Origin: Anaerolineales bacterium
GTDB lineage: Bacteria; Chloroflexota; Anaerolineae; Anaerolineales; UBA11579
NCBI GenBank assembly: GCA_026129305.1
Contig: JAHCII010000003.1
Location: forward strand, 62,001 to 126,000
Direction: 5' to 3'
DNA length: 64,000 nt
Made by a program: the position numbers and the translations under genes. Of this stretch, positions 11,716 to 20,926 are shown piece by piece. Position 1 is the first letter of the stretch; each line of letters opens with the position of its first letter. The notes under the pieces are model-generated. The model saw only the letters and a program-made list of their open reading frames with translations. It was not told the origin of the DNA and made no database searches.

Positions 11716-12297
11716 ATGTCCACATTGCCGCAACCCAACGACCTGGTGCTGGTGGCTCTGTTGCCCCAGCCACGTGACCTGGAGATCGCGCGCCTGCTGG
11801 GCTGGTATCGTATCCCGCTGCGCACCGCCCCGCGCGTGATCGCTGTGGACTGGCTGGCCTTTTACCAGCCGGCCAGCTTCCCACAAGAACAGCGCTGGCA
11901 GGTGCAACATTGCGCCCAAGTGCAGGGCCATGAGCTCGTCACGCGCGAGCAGTTGTTCAAAGATCAGAGCGGCGGCCCCAAAGCGGGGCATGAATACTTC
12001 AAGATCGCGCTGGGGCCGCTGCAAAGCCTGCCGCAGCCCATTCCCTCCGGGAAATGGAAGCGGCTGACCTTCTTGTACACTACAGGCGAACGCCTGCTGG
12101 CCGCCCAGGACCTGAGCCAACTGGGCGTACATGACGAAGAACGCCAGGTGCTCTTTCAGGCCTTGCGGGAGCGCGCCAAGCAGGAGCAGCAATATTCGAC
12201 AGTGCGTCGCCCCGAATTTCCGCTTGACCCCGATCTGCTGGCCTACATCAGTTTGCAGGCTGGCGGCGCCGCCTACTTCCGGGAAGTCGAGCCCTGA
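11716..12297 (+). CDS. Conserved-looking hypothetical protein, first gene of the antiporter-like module
   Basis: A 193-residue soluble protein I do not recognise. It begins with a beta-like segment (D-L-V-L-V-A-L-L-P) and a charged alpha-beta body, with a Y-F-K-I-A-L-G-P-L pattern in the middle and no cysteine-rich or nucleotide-binding motif. It has no signal peptide or membrane helix. Its stop overlaps the ATG of the next gene (TGATG), so it is translationally coupled to three membrane proteins and may be their soluble partner. A TACAAT at 11681-11686 could be the operon -10. Confidence 0.7.
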   Translation: MSTLPQPNDLVLVALLPQPRDLEIARLLGWYRIPLRTAPRVIAVDWLAFYQPASFPQEQRWQVQHCAQVQGHELVTREQLFKDQSGGPKAGHEYFKIALGPLQSLPQPIPSGKWKRLTFLYTTGERLLAAQDLSQLGVHDEERQVLFQALRERAKQEQQYSTVRRPEFPLDPDLLAYISLQAGGAAYFREVEP

Positions 12298-13814
12298 TGC
12301 TGCTTTTTATCCCCATTCTGATCCTGTTCCTGACCCTGGCCGCGCTGGGCCTGGGCAACCTGCAACGCGGCTTTCGCTCCAACTGGCTGCTGGTGCTGGG
12401 CGGGGCGGCGCTGGCCTGGCTTAGTCTGCTGTTTCTGCGGCTGCGGCTGCCGCTCGAGGTCAGCCTGCCCGCCTGGTGGGCCGGACCTGGCCTGGAGTTC
12501 CAGGCGCGGTTCGTTTTGGACAATGTTTCCTGGACCCTGGCTTTCCTGGTGACCAGCCTGCTGGTGACCGTCTTGCTGCTGCAAGTAGAGCACGCCATGC
12601 AAGCCCGCTGGAGCAGTTGGGCGCCCACGCTGGCGGCCGCGCTGACCACCCTGCTGGCCTGCCTCAGCGGCGATGTTTTGACGCTGTTCCTGGCCTGGAT
12701 TGTTCTGGATGTCGTCATTTTCGGCAGTCTGATGCTGCTGGCCAATGGGCCAGAAGAACGCCTGCAGCAGCTGGCGCGCCTACCCCAGCACCTGGCGGCG
12801 GCCGGCTTGCTGCTGGTCGCCTGGCTGCTGTCTTTTTACGGAGCTGCGGTGCACAGCCTGTTGGTGGTGCTGGCCGGCGGTTTACGATTGGGGCTGTGGC
12901 AGCCGGCGGCGGTCACCAAACCTCTGCCCGGCCTGCGCACAGAACAACAGACCCTGTTGTTCCAAACGCCGCTGGCGGCAGGGCTGGCCGCCTTTGGCCT
13001 GGCTCAGGGCGCCGCGCCGCCAGCGTTCCTGCTGCTGATCCTGCTGCCCAGCCTTTACGCCGCCCTGCAGTGGCTGCGCGGGGAGCAGCCGCAGTGGGCT
13101 TATTGGCATCTGGCTGCCGGCGGGCTAACAGGCGCCAGCGCAGCCCTGGGACAAGTGCAAGCCCTGCTGGCTTTTGCCGGCCTGCTCTTCCTGGGGCCAG
13201 CCCTGCTGAGGGCTGTGCGCTCAGCAGGGCGGCTGCGCCTGCCACTGGCGGTTGGGGGCGCCTTATTGCTTTGCGGTTTGCCCCTGACCGGCAGTCAAGG
13301 CGCGCTGGCGCTGTTTGCAGGCGGCCAATTTTTCGGTTACGTCTTTTTACCGCTGCAGGCCGCCCTGGTGGCGGGCTGGCTCTTGTTCGCCCTGCAGGGC
13401 GACCCAACCAGCGATCCCAGCGAACCGTGGATGGTCGCCATCCAACGCACCGGGTTGACCCTGCCGGCGATCGTGCTGATGGGCTTCGGCCTGGGGCTGC
13501 TGCCGGGGCTGCAGGACGAAGCAACAGCCTGGTGGCCGGCCGCTTTGGTGGCGGCCCTGGCAGCTGGCCTCGCGCTGGTGCGCCGGCAGATCACCTGGCG
13601 GCCCACGGCCCAAGTACGCAGCCGCTATAAGCTGCTGGGCATGGCGCTGGGGCTGAATTGGTTAAGCGCCCTGGGCCGCCTGGCGCAGCGCGGCCTGGCT
13701 TGGCTGCTGGCCCTGACGGCTAGCCTGCTGGAAGGCCGCGCCGGAGTGTTGTGGGCGTTGGTGGTGCTGACTCTGCTGGTCTCGCTGATCAGCAACCTGG
13801 GGATAGGCAGCTGA
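12297..13814 (+). CDS. Complex I / Mrp antiporter-like membrane subunit (divergent NuoL/M-type)
   Basis: A 505-residue protein with about 13-14 hydrophobic helices, length and hydropathy of a NuoL/M/N-type subunit. The segment L-R-L-G-L-W-Q-P-A-A-V near residue 197 sits where family members have a lysine followed by a proline-broken helix and a histidine; here Arg replaces Lys and the histidine is missing. It is coupled to its neighbours by TGATG overlaps. I infer an antiporter-fold protein whose proton path has changed or been lost. The family assignment rests on topology and one weak motif. Confidence 0.6.
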   Translation: MLLFIPILILFLTLAALGLGNLQRGFRSNWLLVLGGAALAWLSLLFLRLRLPLEVSLPAWWAGPGLEFQARFVLDNVSWTLAFLVTSLLVTVLLLQVEHAMQARWSSWAPTLAAALTTLLACLSGDVLTLFLAWIVLDVVIFGSLMLLANGPEERLQQLARLPQHLAAAGLLLVAWLLSFYGAAVHSLLVVLAGGLRLGLWQPAAVTKPLPGLRTEQQTLLFQTPLAAGLAAFGLAQGAAPPAFLLLILLPSLYAALQWLRGEQPQWAYWHLAAGGLTGASAALGQVQALLAFAGLLFLGPALLRAVRSAGRLRLPLAVGGALLLCGLPLTGSQGALALFAGGQFFGYVFLPLQAALVAGWLLFALQGDPTSDPSEPWMVAIQRTGLTLPAIVLMGFGLGLLPGLQDEATAWWPAALVAALAAGLALVRRQITWRPTAQVRSRYKLLGMALGLNWLSALGRLAQRGLAWLLALTASLLEGRAGVLWALVVLTLLVSLISNLGIGS

Positions 13815-14404
13815 TGAACGCATTTGTGCTGGGCTTCTCCCTGGCGTTGCTGGCAATTGTTTGTCTGGCGCAGTTGCTAACGCTGGACTGGCGCTGGCGC
13901 TTGGGCTACTTGAGCGCCATCTATTTGTTGGCTTTCGTGCTGATCACAGCCTCCTGGCCCCTGGAACTGGCGGCGGTCAAACTGGTGAGCGGCTGGATGG
14001 CAACGGCAGTGCTGGGCCTGACCCAGCTGAACAAGCCCGAAAGCGAAGTGAGCGACGCCGACGATTTCCCACAAAGCCTGCTGTTCCTCAGCATGGCGGC
14101 CGGTCTGGTGATCGTGCTGGCCAGCGGCGCGGCCCCGGCCATGGTGGCCTGGGCGCGCCAGTTCGACCCAGGCGTGGTCTGGGGTGGTTTGTTCCTGATC
14201 GGCATGGGACTGCTGCATGTCGGGCTGAGCAGCAATGTGTTCAATAACGGACTGGGGCTGTTGATCCTGCTGGCGGGCTTCGAGGTAATTTATGCCGGGG
14301 TGGAAACCTCGATCCTGGTGGCAGGCTTGCTGGCGTTGCTGACATTGGGGATCTCGCTGGTCAGCGCCTTTTTGATGCAAGCCGGCGAGGGGCAGCGGCC
14401 TTGA
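13814..14404 (+). CDS. Small membrane subunit, NuoK/HyfE-like C-terminal half
   Basis: A 196-residue protein with about six hydrophobic helices. The last ~70 residues (L-I-G-M-G-L-L-H-V-G, then N-N-G-L-G-L-L-I-L-L-A-G-F-E-V-I-Y) resemble the three-helix NuoK/MrpC/HyfE unit, including a mid-membrane glutamate. The N-terminal half is a separate helical block. The ATG overlaps the upstream stop and its own stop overlaps the next start (TGATG both sides). A HyfE-like role between two large antiporter-like subunits fits its position, but the evidence is suggestive only. Confidence 0.55.
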   Translation: MNAFVLGFSLALLAIVCLAQLLTLDWRWRLGYLSAIYLLAFVLITASWPLELAAVKLVSGWMATAVLGLTQLNKPESEVSDADDFPQSLLFLSMAAGLVIVLASGAAPAMVAWARQFDPGVVWGGLFLIGMGLLHVGLSSNVFNNGLGLLILLAGFEVIYAGVETSILVAGLLALLTLGISLVSAFLMQAGEGQRP

Positions 14405-15843
14405 TGAGTTCGCCGCTGCTGTGGATCCTCAGCCCTGCGCTGCTGGGCGTTGGCCTGCTGTTCTACCGCGGCAAGTACCAGTGGCTGCCCACGCTGATCG
14501 CCGGGATCGCCAGCCTGCTGTTGGCCTGGATCGCCTGGCAGCTGCCCATCGGCGTGGTGATGCGCCTGGGCACGCTCAACCTGGAGATCTCGCCCTCCTT
14601 GGTGGTGCTGGGGCGCAGCTTTACGCTGAGCCGTGCGCACATGCCTTTATTGACTTTGCTGTACTTGTTCCAGGCCTTATGGCTGTTTGGCGGTTACCTG
14701 GCGCGCCCGGGGGTACTGTTCACACCGCTGACCCTGATCTGCCTGGCTTTGCTGGTGGCCGCCCTGGCGGTGCAGCCTTTCCTGTACGCGGCCTTACTGA
14801 TCTGCATGGCGGCTCTGCTGCTGATCCCTGTGTTGCTGCGGGAAAAGGCCAAGCCCGGGCTGGGGCTGCAGCGTTATCTGCAGTTTCAGGTCTTTGCGGT
14901 GCCCTTCATCTTGTTCACCGGCTGGATCCTTTCCGGCGTGGAGGCCAACCCAAGCAATACCATGCTGGTGCTGCGTGCCAGTATGCTGCTGGCCCTGGGT
15001 TTCGGTTTCCTGCTGGCGCTCTTCCCCTTCCATAGCTGGATCCCCCTGCTGGGCGGAGAAAGCCATCCCTACGTCTTCGGATACACCGTATTCTTCCTGC
15101 CGGCGACCGGGATGATCTTTGCGCTGAGCTTCTTTGACCGCTACGCCTGGCTGCGCGACGCCGACTTCAACGCGCCGCTACTGTTGGCCGGCGGGCTGAT
15201 GGCGCTGCTGGGCGGGCTGTGGGCTGCCCACGAACGCCAGCTGGGTCGCATGTTCGGCTATGCGGCGGTGCTGCTCAGCGGCTACTGCGTGCAGGCCATC
15301 GGCCTGGGTGGCGCCGCGGGTGTGCAGGCGCTCTTCGCCCTGCTGATCGGCCAGGGGTTGGCGGTTTGGGCCTGGGCGACGGCGCTCAGCCGGCTGCCCC
15401 AGCAAGAAGCCACCACGCCAGAGGGACTGACCGCCCAAGCGACCAGCCAGCCCCTGACCATCGCGGTGCTGTTGCTGGCCTTGGGTAGCCTGGCGGGATT
15501 GCCCCTGCTGGGCGTCTTTCACGGTCGCTTGGCGGTCTTGGACGAGACCATGGTGCAAGCGCCTTGGGCGGCCCTGGCGGCCCTGGCGGGCAGCCTGGGC
15601 CTGCTGGCCGCGGCCTACCGCCTGCTGGCTGCAACCCTGGCGGCCCAGGGGCAGCGGGCCAAAGGCTGGGTGGAGGAAGCCCAGCCAGCAGACAACAGCA
15701 AGGCCAGCGACCTGCAACACATCTATATCTGGGGGTTCGCTGCCTTCAGCGCCATCCTGCTGTTTGGCAGCGGCCTGTTTCCCCAGCTGTTTTTGAGCGC
15801 GGTGCCTGAGCTGGCAGCGCTGTTCAGCCAGCTGGTGCGCTAA
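14404..15843 (+). CDS. Complex I / Mrp antiporter-like membrane subunit (divergent NuoM/N-type)
   Basis: A 479-residue, about 14-helix protein. A-L-F-P-F-H-S-W-I-P (about residue 204 onward) is a clear counterpart of the F-P-F-H-x-W-L-P motif of NuoL/M/N and MrpA/D. The lysine four positions before it in true pumps (K-S-A-Q-F-P-F-H in this window's MrpA) is Leu here, and the following A-P-T-P-x-S-A is replaced by G-E-S-H-P-Y-V. I start at the ATG at 14404, coupled to the upstream stop. It probably forms a membrane complex with the two preceding subunits, function unknown. Confidence 0.65.
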   Translation: MSSPLLWILSPALLGVGLLFYRGKYQWLPTLIAGIASLLLAWIAWQLPIGVVMRLGTLNLEISPSLVVLGRSFTLSRAHMPLLTLLYLFQALWLFGGYLARPGVLFTPLTLICLALLVAALAVQPFLYAALLICMAALLLIPVLLREKAKPGLGLQRYLQFQVFAVPFILFTGWILSGVEANPSNTMLVLRASMLLALGFGFLLALFPFHSWIPLLGGESHPYVFGYTVFFLPATGMIFALSFFDRYAWLRDADFNAPLLLAGGLMALLGGLWAAHERQLGRMFGYAAVLLSGYCVQAIGLGGAAGVQALFALLIGQGLAVWAWATALSRLPQQEATTPEGLTAQATSQPLTIAVLLLALGSLAGLPLLGVFHGRLAVLDETMVQAPWAALAALAGSLGLLAAAYRLLAATLAAQGQRAKGWVEEAQPADNSKASDLQHIYIWGFAAFSAILLFGSGLFPQLFLSAVPELAALFSQLVR

Positions 15844-15909: not shown

Positions 15910-17073
15910 ATGGAAAAAGAACAACTGGAAAAGAAAGTAGAGTGGTTGGACGCGGAACGCCGCAAAGCCCTGGACACCATCGCAGCTCTGGAAGCGCGCC
16001 TGGCCAAGCTGGAAAGCCAGCCCAAACAGGAGAACCAGAGCAAGACGCTGACCAGCCATAAAACGCGCCTGGATGCTTACGGGAAACAATTGACGGAGCT
16101 GGACAAGCTGCTGAAAAGCCAGCAAAGCGCCGAAAAGAAAGAGCAGCAGGACCTCAAGAAGAAAACCAGTCAGCTGGAAAAAAGCTTTGCGCAGGAAAAC
16201 AAAAGCGTAAATAAGCTGCTGCAGGACTTCCGCCAGGAGATCCTGGAGATTCAATCAATGCAGAAATCGATCCACGGGCATCGTGAGCAACTCGCCCAGT
16301 TGGAAGGCCGCATTGAGACGGTCTATGAAAGCATTCAAGACGTGATCACCGGGGAGCAAAAGCGCAGCCAGTTGGCGAAAAGCCTGGAAGACGCCAGCCG
16401 CGAAGACGCCGAGCGCTTGACCCAGATGCATGCCGAAGTTGCCGCTCTGCTGACCCGCTTGGAATCGACGGCAAAGCAAAACGAAAACCTGTACAACTCC
16501 CACCGCAAAGTGGAAAAGCGCATGGATGAGCTGTATAACGCCGAAACCACGCGCCGCCAAGAACATGAAGACGCACAGCAAAAGCTGGGCCTGATGCAGG
16601 TCGAGAACGAGCGCAGCTGGAAGCAGTGGGCGCAGCGCCTGGAAACGTTTGAGAAGCAGGCGGCTCAAATTCCGCAGCAGCTCAGTTCACTAGAAAGCAC
16701 CGAGATGGCCGTAAAACGGGCGCAGCGCTCGTTTGAAGACCTGATCGACAAGATCAACCGCCGCATCAATGAGCTCAACGAGATCCAGCGGCTGGGGGAC
16801 CAGCGTTTCCGCCAGGAATGGTCCACCTTCCAGACCGATGCGCAAAAGCGCTGGTCGAACTTTACTCTAACGCAAGAAGAGCAGCAGCGTGAGCGCGGCC
16901 GGCAATATGAAAAGATGAACGAGCAGGTGCAGCGCATAGAAGATACCTTGCGCGAATTGCAGGATGGCTTGCAACACCTGAACGACCAATCAGAACGCAA
17001 CTTGCAGGCGCTGCTGGAACTGGCGCGTGACTCACTGGCCGAGAACGAGCGCTTTCTAAGCAACTCCCGCTAA
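15910..17073 (+). CDS. Long coiled-coil protein of unknown function
   Basis: A 387-residue protein, almost entirely heptad-patterned and rich in Glu, Lys, Gln and Arg, with no signal peptide, membrane helix or globular domain visible. Short breaks occur near residues 45 and 255 (Q-A-A-Q-I-P-Q-Q-L). A TATAAT (15867-15872) lies 38 bases upstream. It is convergent with parB and shares a bidirectional terminator with it. Coiled-coil proteins of this type can be cytoskeletal or chromosome-organising; nothing in the sequence decides this. Confidence 0.75.
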   Translation: MEKEQLEKKVEWLDAERRKALDTIAALEARLAKLESQPKQENQSKTLTSHKTRLDAYGKQLTELDKLLKSQQSAEKKEQQDLKKKTSQLEKSFAQENKSVNKLLQDFRQEILEIQSMQKSIHGHREQLAQLEGRIETVYESIQDVITGEQKRSQLAKSLEDASREDAERLTQMHAEVAALLTRLESTAKQNENLYNSHRKVEKRMDELYNAETTRRQEHEDAQQKLGLMQVENERSWKQWAQRLETFEKQAAQIPQQLSSLESTEMAVKRAQRSFEDLIDKINRRINELNEIQRLGDQRFRQEWSTFQTDAQKRWSNFTLTQEEQQRERGRQYEKMNEQVQRIEDTLRELQDGLQHLNDQSERNLQALLELARDSLAENERFLSNSR

Positions 17074-17117: not shown

Positions 17118-17960
17118 ATTTGGCTTGCAGCAACCGCGCGATCAGCGCGTCCAATTCTTCGTCAGAATAATAGAACAGAGTGATCTTGCCGCCTTTGCCG
17201 CTATGCTGCAGGCTGACCTTGGTGCCCAGCGCATCACGCAGTTCGGCCTGCAGGGCGCTCACATCGGCCGATGGGGCGCGCTTGACCGGCGCGACGGGCT
17301 TGTGGCCTTTGAGCTTGCGCACCAGCTCTTCCGCCTGGCGCACGTTGAGGTTCTGATCGAGCACGGTGGCCAGAGCCGCGTTCTGCGCCTTGTCACCGTC
17401 CAAAGCCTTGAGGGCGCGCCCGTGGCCCTCTGAAATGCGGCCGGCGGCCAGGGCTTGTTTGACCGCCGCAGAGAGCTCCAGCAAACCAATGGTGTTGGTG
17501 ATCGCCACGCGGCTTTTGCCCACGCGTTGGGCAATCAGCTCATGCGAGAGTCCAAAGTCCTTGTGCAGCTGCTGATAGGCCTCGGCTGCTTCCAAGGGGC
17601 TGAGGTCGGCGCGCTGCACATTTTCGATGAGGGCCAGTTCCATCAAAGCCTGGTCGTCGGCCTCACGCAGCACCACCGGTACATGGGTCAGCCCGGCCAG
17701 CTTGGCGGCCTGCCAGCGGCGTTCGCCGGCGATGAGCGTGTAGCCGTCCCCAGGGCCGCGCTTGACGATTAGCGGTTGGATGACGCCATGCACGCGGATC
17801 GATTCGGCCAGCTCCTGCAACTGCTCCGGCTGGAAGACGCTGCGCGGCTGGTGCGGGTTGGGGCGAATATTTTCCACAGCGGCCTGGTGTACGTCAGATG
17901 CAGCAATCTCGCTCTCGCGCGGGATCAGCGCATCCAAGCCTTTCCCCAGTCGCGAGGCCA

Positions 17961-17961
<1 letters not shown>
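17116..17961 (-). CDS. parB: Chromosome partitioning protein ParB
   Basis: A 281-residue ParB/Noc-type protein that binds parS and spreads, now known to act as a CTP-dependent clamp. Visible are the basic N-terminus with G-K-G-L-D-A-L-I used for ParA contact, the N-P-H-Q-P-R motif, the I-A-G-E-R-R-W CTP-binding motif (about residue 77), the HTH around V-G-K-S-R-V-A-I-T-N, and a C-terminal dimerisation domain. It overlaps the parA stop by one base (TGATG). I found no sequence close to the usual parS palindrome in the window. Confidence 0.95.
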
Positions 17962-18748
<787 letters not shown>

Positions 18749-18749
<1 letters not shown>

Positions 18750-19615
18750 CAAAACGCCTCAGTCAGGCCGGAACTGAGCAGGTCAACGACATCATCCCGG
18801 CTGGGCGCACCGGCCAAGCCGTGATGGTTTACCGAGCGAGTGGCCAGCTGGCTGGCCAGCCTGGTGGCTTGCAGCGGGTCAGCCTGCTGGTACATGCTTA
18901 TAAAGAAAGCCGCCGCAAAGACATCGCCGGCCCCGGTCGGGTCCAGCGCTTCCGCCACGGCGGGCTGCACGCTGAGTTGCTCGCCCTGCGTGTAGATGTG
19001 CACAGCCGCTGCACCGTCGGTGACCACCAGCAGCGGGCAGGCGGCCGCCAGCCGTTCGATCTGGGCCTGGTCGCCGCCCAGATCCTCACGGGCCAGCACA
19101 CAGGCATCCGCCCGAGCCAGCACGTGTTCGGCTTCTTCCCATTCGGCGCGGTGCACCTGGCCGTCCGGTCCCCAGCCGCGCAGCCAGCCTTGCGGGGTCA
19201 CGCCGAGGAACGAGTCATCAAAATAGGAAAGGATGCGGGCGGAGACTTCCTGCGCCACCGGAGCCAGATGCAGAATGCGCGGGGCGCGCCAAGCCTCTGG
19301 AATGAAATGGAAGTCCAACTGCGGGCCGAGGCTGGGCAGGTAACGCTGGGCGCGGTCACCGGTAGCGGTGTAGATGTTCTCAAAGGTGCTGCTGCGCTCG
19401 GCGCCCAGATTGAGGATCGGGATATCCACCAAGGGGCCGAGGGACAATTCCTCACCCCAGGCGGTGAGGATGCCCGGCCGCCAGCCAAAGGCTTTGGCGG
19501 TGAGGGCCGCATAAGCCGCCGAACCGCCCAGACGCGGGCCGAGGGCGGTTTGGTCGATGGTGATGTGACCCACCACCAAGTAATCTATGGCCTCAAAGCG
19601 GCCCAATTGATGCAT
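18749..19615 (-). CDS. PfkB-family carbohydrate/nucleoside kinase
   Basis: A 288-residue ribokinase-fold kinase. The N-terminal L-G-G-S-A-A-Y-A-A substrate region and the C-terminal D-P-T-G-A-G-D-V-F-A-A-A-F-F motif (about residues 225-238) with the catalytic Asp are intact, so it should be active; the substrate is unknown. The ATG at 19615 has TATAAT (complement 19623-19628) seven bases upstream and no ribosome site, so it is leaderless. It heads an operon with parA and parB. Compare the motif-less PfkB-like protein at 52833. Confidence 0.88.
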
Positions 19616-19794
19616 GGCGTCGATTATAGCTGATAGCGATTGGCTCTTAGTTGTTGGCTGCCTGATCCCCGAATTGCACAAAAAACCATGCTACTTTATA
19701 CTCCTTGCAACTTTGTTTGGGGAATTGCACTTCCCCCGCGCTTCAGCCAGCAAGGGTGGCGTTCTACAAAGCTCACAACAACTGCAAACAGAAT

Positions 19795-19963
19795 ATGAGA
19801 AAACCCTTCCGCCTTTCCGCTGGCGCGGCGCTAGTCGTATCCCTGGCTCTGTTGTTTGTCCCACCAGCCCTTGCCGCCGCCGCGCCCGGCCCGCTGTGCC
19901 GCCAGCGGCGAGTATCTCTATCGGCGGGCAGTGGGGGCTGTGCTGGTGAGCGTTAGCCAATGA
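19795..19963 (+). pseudogene. Relic of a sortase-domain secreted protein gene (5' and 3' ends only)
   Basis: The ATG at 19795 opens a signal peptide (M-R-K-P-F-R-L-S-A-G, then a hydrophobic core ending A-L-A-A-A-A-P) that runs on into unrelated sequence. From 19901, in another frame, the DNA encodes A-S-G-E-Y-L-Y-R-R-A-V-G-A-V-L-V-S-V-S-Q and a stop at 19961. That matches the last residues of the intact sortase protein ending at 42065 (G-D-Y-L-Y-R-R-A-V-Q-A-V-L-V-S-V-S-Q). About 20 bases separate signal peptide and tail, so almost the entire gene was lost by an internal deletion that also changed frame. The identical downstream palindrome at both loci supports common origin. Confidence 0.8.
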
Positions 19964-19971
19964 TGTCCATA

Positions 19972-19997
19972 TAGGGGCGGCTTGCAAGCCGCCCCTA
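19972..19997. repeat. 26-bp perfect palindromic repeat, copy 1
   Basis: A perfect palindrome with half-site TAGGGGCGGCTTG. An identical copy is at 42105-42130. Both lie just after a VLVSVSQ-ending sortase reading frame. A T-run follows on the plus strand, so it may also terminate transcription. Confidence 0.9.
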
Positions 19998-20023
19998 CTT
20001 TTTCCGTCAGTACAACCAGCCAA

Positions 20024-20048
20024 TAGGGCGAGGCATGCCTCGCCCCTA
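20024..20048. repeat. Palindromic repeat variant, copy 2
   Basis: TAGGGCGAGGCATG and CATGCCTCGCCCCTA form a near-perfect palindrome with one unpaired base. It has the same TAGGGG/CCCCTA ends as copy 1 but a different core, so the family keeps its ends and stem shape more than its core sequence. Confidence 0.75.
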
Positions 20049-20146
20049 CCCTGAGCGGGTATGGCAAAACTTCACCAGCTAGGTTTGCAAAACAGATTTG
20101 GGGGCTTGCTTCGCCGGCAAGCTAGCTCGCAACGATGATCCGCTGC

Positions 20147-20926
20147 TCAAATACTCGCCAAAAAATCGCGTACGATCTGGTTGAAGCGCTGCGGTTGTTC
20201 CAGATTGGGCACATGCCCGGCGCCTTCGATCAGTTCCAACTGCCCGTTGGGCAGCGCGGCGGCCATGGCTTCGGCTTCGCTGTAAGGGATGACCTGGTCC
20301 TGCACCCCATGCACCACCAGCGTCGGCATGTGCAGCTGCGGCAGCAGCTGGCTGGCGTCCGGCCGGTCGCGCATGGCGCCCAGGGCGGCCACCACGCCCG
20401 CCTGGCTGGCAGTGGCCATGATGGCTTGCAGCTCAGCGGCCACGGCGGGTTGCGCCGTGTAGGTGTCCGGAGCGAGCAATTTGGGGAACATACCCTCAGC
20501 GACCACGCCGGGGCCCTGCTCTTGCACTTTGGCGATCGTGGCGTCCCGCCCGGCCTTGGCTTCAGCAGAGTCGGCCCCAGCCCGGGTGGAAAGCAGCAGC
20601 AACGCGCCGACGCGCTCCGGGAATAAGCGGGCGAAGGCCAGAGCGATGTAGCCGCCCATCGAAAGCCCACCCACCGCCACCGGCTCCAAAATATCCAGGG
20701 CGTCCAGCAGCGCCACGCAATCCTCGGCGTAGCTTTCGACGCTGGCGGCATCCACCGCGGCCGAGTCGCCGAAGCCAGGCAGGTCAGGCGCCAGCAGGCG
20801 CGCGCCGAGGGCATCCGACTGGGCCGCCCACATGCGGCTGCTGAATGGGAAGCCATGAATCAGCAAAAGCGGCTTGCCGGAACCGTTTTCTTCAAAGTGC
20901 AGGCTGAGTGTTTGCGTATTTTCCAT
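20147..20926 (-). CDS. Alpha/beta-fold hydrolase
   Basis: A 259-residue cytosolic hydrolase. The oxyanion-region H-G-F-P-F-S-S, nucleophile elbow G-L-S-M-G-G-Y, and C-terminal H-G-V-Q-D-Q-V-I-P and G-A-G-H-V-P-N-L-E segments supply Ser, Asp and His. It resembles small esterases such as 3-oxoadipate enol-lactonase relatives, but the substrate cannot be told. I start at the ATG at 20926 (M-E-N-T-Q-T-L); TACACT on the minus strand lies six bases upstream, making it leaderless and excluding an in-frame start 42 bases earlier. Confidence 0.88.
   Translation of the reverse strand: MENTQTLSLHFEENGSGKPLLLIHGFPFSSRMWAAQSDALGARLLAPDLPGFGDSAAVDAASVESYAEDCVALLDALDILEPVAVGGLSMGGYIALAFARLFPERVGALLLLSTRAGADSAEAKAGRDATIAKVQEQGPGVVAEGMFPKLLAPDTYTAQPAVAAELQAIMATASQAGVVAALGAMRDRPDASQLLPQLHMPTLVVHGVQDQVIPYSEAEAMAAALPNGQLELIEGAGHVPNLEQPQRFNQIVRDFLASI

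Follow-up and report, generated by a model that had tools for sequence, protein, structure and literature searches.

Organization of the locus

The window, that is, the whole stretch of 64,000 nucleotides of Anaerolineales DNA that was analysed, carries three tightly overlapping membrane ORFs at 12297-15843 (F1, F2 and F3, hereafter the trio), with further genes on either side:

11716..12297, + strand: P0001, a 193-aa soluble protein just 5' of the trio, rejected as part of it
12297..13814, + strand: F1, a 505-aa NuoL-fold subunit whose C-terminal helices resemble the NuoL lateral helix and last TM
13814..14404, + strand: F2, a 196-aa seven-helix subunit
14404..15843, + strand: F3, a 479-aa antiporter-like subunit (PF00361)
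15910..17073, + strand: P0005, a 387-aa coiled-coil protein 3' of the trio, a possible accessory

The start of F2 was taken as the ATG at 13814 within TGATG, the ORF list having given the GTG at 13751. Among P0001, F1, F2 and F3, a Pfam scan recognised F3 alone (PF00361 at 5.7e-10, above the cut-off), with no meaningful match for the other three. At the family level, PF00361 was matched by 25 of 28 F3 members; F1 and F2 family members gave no Pfam matches bar one stray, so that both proteins are probably annotated as hypothetical in databases. Relative to the nearest genome (G010), dN/dS was 0.16 for F1, 0.09 for F2 and 0.06 for F3; thus, all three are maintained under purifying selection. Among the papers listed by searches of the open-access PMC library, none described the trio.

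Distribution and gene order

Among 61 relatives, F3-type matches were found in 58 (part of them ordinary NuoN), F2 in 54 and P0001 in 56, and by our own reading of bit scores together with the other subunits the trio itself was counted in 55. With a single F1 sequence as the query, matches came from only 36/61 relatives, the protein having diverged too far for such a search; profile iteration recovered 57 F1 proteins, found beside F2 and F3. In the fetched loci the three homologues adjoin one another, and their arrangement is kept both within the order and in further orders of the Anaerolineae, the neighbourhood conservation that had been proposed as a check when the trio was first noticed. 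No stops were seen inside the listed F3-type matches of the relatives.

At the level of the class, the F1 profile matched 109 of 249 genomes at 1e-3 and about 90 at 1e-10. In a phylum sample of 301 genomes it matched 43, of which 34 lie within the class and nine outside, the sole strong match outside being G313 (1.3e-26). A scan of GTDB contigs yielded 172 relatives, from which 80 loci titled Chloroflexota, Anaerolineae or related were kept, including one from the isolate Anaerolinea thermolimosa IMO-1; F1 was present in 78, F2 in 80 and F3 in 80, the last by construction and with some contigs ending early. This set overlaps the relative genomes (L139 is a contig of G003), and the two are not independent.

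Fold and residues of the large subunits

The F1 model (pLDDT 91.1, pTM 0.90) has a NuoL fold, with a best Foldseek match of 3.9e-10. In a VIA comparison, it superposes on E. coli NuoL over 460 residues (Z 30.6, 3.8 A, 14% identity) and on an MrpA structure over 451 (Z 29.8, 3.8 A). In a tree of 58 rows, which took every third family row and has several long branches, F1 and F3 form separate clades (100/99 and 100/100, respectively), both apart from 17 canonical Nuo/Mrp/Hyf rows.

The residue census was made without partial or duplicate proteins (42 of 57 F1 and 51 of 56 F3 proteins of the order set were kept), near-identical rows such as those of G000 and G010 remaining in it. The references in the same alignments, namely E. 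coli Nuo/Hyf, the window Mrp proteins and Chloroflexota Nuo/Hyf/Mrp, all keep the TM5 Glu and the TM7 Lys. In the window F1, the TM7 Lys site is Arg197 (codon 12885-12887), and the family has Arg there in 56/58 members and Lys in 0/58; the Pro and His that follow are missing from the window protein and kept in most relatives. The TM5 Glu site is Ile135, Glu being found at this position in 0/58, and Asp138 (codon 12708-12710), three residues or one turn further on, is Asp in 55/58. Both Asp138 and Arg197 are invariant in the 68 F1 rows of the GTDB-locus alignment, these alignments having been built with 8/80 loci omitted as partial and further rows as near-duplicates.

In F3, Leu203 (codon 15010-15012) occupies the position of the TM7 Lys; Lys is missing in 63/63 members and never occurs at the site in 81 F3 proteins (the 80 GTDB loci and the window). 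The TM8 and TM11 lysines are likewise gone in all 63, and the TM7 proline is kept in every one. At the TM11 His site the family has Arg in 47, Gln in 11 and His in 3 of 63, and at the TM12 site (Arg375 in the window) Arg in 39, His in 12 and Lys in 5, the residue thus being basic in 56/63. The TM5 Glu is kept in 30/63 and is Cys134 in the window. These results uphold what the first-pass annotation had reported of the window: a leucine in place of the F3 lysine, an arginine and a lost histidine in F1, and an intact lysine in the window MrpA and MrpD, both of which retain Glu and Lys in the F1 and F3 alignments.

The small subunit

The F2 model (pLDDT 93.4, pTM 0.90) comprises seven helices and had no Foldseek match at E 0.001. 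Its last three helices (residues 118-195) superpose on MbsG (6u8y_G), a subunit of the NuoK/MrpC type, over 78 residues at 1.9 A, a match that ranks 33rd among helical bundles and whose Z of 5.8 lies below the level trustworthy for helical matches. None of 67 family members matched any Pfam family at E 0.01, comparisons with NuoK or HyfE profiles were not significant (a global hhalign against HyfE gave E 0.0019 but a probability of 5.7%), and a search for an internal repeat was not significant either. The conserved charges are Lys56, Glu157 and Glu164, both glutamates being invariant in 67 F2 rows. Of the NuoL/M, NuoK and NuoM/N shapes originally assigned to the three overlapping ORFs, the outer two hold, through the F1 fold and the F3 domain; F2 may be called NuoK-shaped only in its C-terminal part, on a weak match, and its kinship with NuoK is putative.

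Neighbouring genes

P0001 (193 aa, with no Pfam or NCBIfam match) had been proposed as the partner of the trio. It lies near the trio in 15/80 GTDB loci, stands apart from it beside other genes in G033 and G036, is absent from trio-bearing G058 and G050, and occurs without the trio in G026 and G032. With a minority linkage and each occurring without the other, P0001 was rejected as a partner.

A P0005-type gene, by comparison, is linked to the trio in 78/80 GTDB loci, and the protein has a strongly conserved C-terminal core. Proteins of this type occur in 210/249 genomes of the class, outside the order mostly far from the trio, and an obligate partnership was rejected for that reason; P0005 is a possible accessory. 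Dihydropyrimidinase-like and SelB-like genes (both named from the look of the sequences, the latter present in 64/80 GTDB loci) are frequent neighbours within the order and were set aside as well, as in other orders the neighbours are other genes, among them HMG-CoA reductase/synthase-like ones (again named from the look of the sequence).

Relationship to redox genes

Searches with phmmer and E. coli Nuo/Hyf queries found no redox genes within at most 8 kb of the trio in the 80 GTDB loci, some of whose contigs end early, and no NiFe hydrogenase subunits (queries HyfA-I), consistent with the initial observation that no redox subunits are linked. G186, a genome from outside the order, is the one exception: there a NuoB-C-D-I cluster runs divergently about 0.9 kb from the trio, a linkage not present in G081 and G116 of the same family.

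Elsewhere in the genomes such genes are common. PF00346 occurs in 59/61 relatives, often twice, as the NuoD of complex I and as a fused NuoCD, the latter of NuoB-CD-I type and counted, again by our own reading, in 52/61. The second NuoB-fused NuoCD-NuoI cluster of G000 lies at L219 7753-10920 (G000:C6, about 17752-20919), and others lie in L220, L221 and L224. Neither membrane subunits nor the NADH module are linked to these clusters, which are mostly near an Mrp/NBP35-type ATPase, and in five of seven aligned copies the Tyr of the PYTDR motif is replaced by Phe. The canonical nuo locus of the same genome (L113 7529-16289, G000:C1) carries two consecutive NuoM-type genes, in the order H-J-K-L-M-M-N, and resembles the '2M' complex I.

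The closed, 99% complete genome G060, of the same order, carries the trio at locus L084. It has no PF00346 (NuoD) and no PF01058 (NuoB), and F3 is its sole PF00361 gene; therefore, the trio of G060 must do without complex I, without a group 4 hydrogenase and without Mrp. This independence from redox partners is established in that one genome.

A derived family with a probably changed function

Since the replacements are fixed family-wide and purifying selection acts on all three genes, the word 'degenerate', which was first applied to the trio, does not fit it; judged by its residues and phylogeny, it is better described as derived and maintained, a family that groups apart from the canonical clades. 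The other part of that description has stood, namely that this is an antiporter-fold complex which lacks the canonical lysine relay and belongs to no Nuo, Hyf or Mrp operon. The job of the trio probably differs from that of the proton-pumping arm of complex I, because the lysines are lost, the genes lie apart from those of electron transfer and the trio is kept without complex I in G060. The reading that we favour, with roughly even confidence, is that of a stand-alone, conserved three-subunit complex of the complex I/Mrp antiporter superfamily, in which the lysine proton relay has been abandoned and a redox module is not required.

F1 with its NuoL fold, F2 in the place of NuoK or HyfE, and the NuoM/N/MrpD-like F3 would form one complex, an assembly that we infer from gene linkage only. 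Such a complex would lack canonical proton pumping, and the suggestion in the first-pass annotation that normal pumping has been lost agrees with the residues and with published mutants: according to passages of one report, conduction by isolated complex I modules stops when the middle Lys (K235M) or a terminal residue (K385I, E377Q) is replaced (PMC11496545). In F1, the switch of TM5 Glu and TM7 Lys would have given way to the Asp138/Arg197 pair, which should stay charged, and the subunit might thereby act mainly as a locked brace. An ion path could remain along the two glutamates and the lysine of F2 and the Arg/His residues at TM11 and TM12 of F3, perhaps as a conduit of altered selectivity that is gated or coupled to ions; both roles are guesses from the residue pattern. 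Speaking against this reading are the TM5 Glu in part of the F3 family and the basic TM12 residue in most of it. A broader proposal, which we put forward tentatively as a possibility, is that the trio is a new kind of membrane machine, in which the antiporter arm of complex I, released from both redox chemistry and the lysine relay, has found a new purpose across Anaerolineae, as an ion conduit, a sensor or a platform, and possibly contacts the class-wide coiled-coil protein.

Several alternatives were weighed against this stand-alone complex. The trio could be a structural platform, moving no ions and serving to anchor a soluble protein such as P0005. The relay lysines are indeed gone, P0005 follows the trio in nearly all GTDB loci, and passages on DabB, used by the non-redox partner DabA, indicate that NuoL-fold subunits can be repurposed (PMC13144422). 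We nevertheless consider a pure platform unlikely, as P0005-type proteins are mostly far from the trio outside the order and the conserved charges of F2 and F3 argue for more than scaffolding.

Alternatively, the trio might be a working proton or sodium antiporter on relocated residues, namely Asp138/Arg197 of F1, Glu157/Glu164 of F2 and the TM11/TM12 Arg/His of F3, replacements that are widely conserved. Arginine is a poor proton relay, however, and no other Mrp subunits were seen linked to the trio. In another system, complementation of B. subtilis mrpA, passages of the report describe Na+ tolerance as barely changed by the NuoL substitutions K229A and E144Q (PMC4938563), so that transport may survive when only the TM7 Lys is lost, a point that also weighs against the reading we favour. 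In the trio, the middle Lys is gone from both large subunits, and its replacement is what blocks conduction in the passages on isolated modules cited above (PMC11496545); an antiporter of this kind thus appears distinctly unlikely.

The trio could also be the membrane arm of a split second complex-I-like enzyme, for which the orphan NuoB-NuoCD(fused)-NuoI cluster would be a natural candidate as the soluble, redox-active half. Clusters of this type without linked membrane subunits exist (G000, G033, G015 and G005), trio and fused NuoCD are each present in most relatives, and in G186 the trio and NuoB-C-D-I are divergent neighbours. Against this, the two coincide in 48 of the 61 relatives, with seven having the trio only (G017, G024, G036, G042, G048, G056 and G060), four the fused NuoCD only (G019, G022, G032 and G041) and two neither, an association that is not significant (Fisher p 0.21). 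G060 lacks NuoB and NuoD altogether, the linkage of G186 is not shared by G081 and G116, and neither the trio loci nor the surroundings of the NuoB-CD-I clusters showed a NuoH-type gene. A split enzyme is accordingly very unlikely in our judgement. Finally, a decaying remnant of an Mrp, Nuo or Hyf operon, as the loss of catalytic residues might suggest, is hardly credible given the low dN/dS ratios, the uninterrupted F3-type matches listed and the same replacements across orders.

The trio amounts to a natural experiment on complex I, a widespread antiporter-fold complex in which residues held to be indispensable for moving protons have undergone fixed replacement. Knowledge of its function would test which residues are required by the fold and what an antiporter module can do without redox drive.

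Comparison with known systems

The trio resembles the NuoL/M/N subunits of complex I in the whole-length fold of F1 and in the PF00361 domain and universal TM7 proline of F3. It differs in lacking the TM7, TM8 and TM11 lysines, in forming clades of its own, in having no redox operon and in being present in a genome without NuoB and NuoD.

Its order of a NuoL-type, a small and a NuoN-type subunit corresponds to the A-C-D gene order of Mrp, and the MrpA structure matches F1. Compared with the seven subunits of a full Mrp operon, the trio appears as an operon-like block of three genes with no MrpB/E/F/G type seen linked to it, and the conserved lysines of MrpA and MrpD are missing from it. The TM7 and TM12 lysines of Mrp are called absolutely conserved and essential in passages of PMC7419157.

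Hydrogenase-4 offers the likewise similar order B-E-F (HyfB, HyfE and HyfF), with F2 (196 aa) close in length to HyfE (216 aa). In contrast to that system, the trio has no linked hydrogenase genes and has lost the canonical residues, and profile kinship of F2 with HyfE is not significant.

The DAB complex (DabA/DabB) is a further case of a NuoL-like subunit outside respiration (PMC13144422, in passages on that complex); in a Pfam scan, the window P0001 and P0005 gave no match to a DabA family. According to the same passages, DabB keeps most of the proton-transfer residues of NuoL (PMC13144422), whereas the trio has dispensed with the lysine relay.
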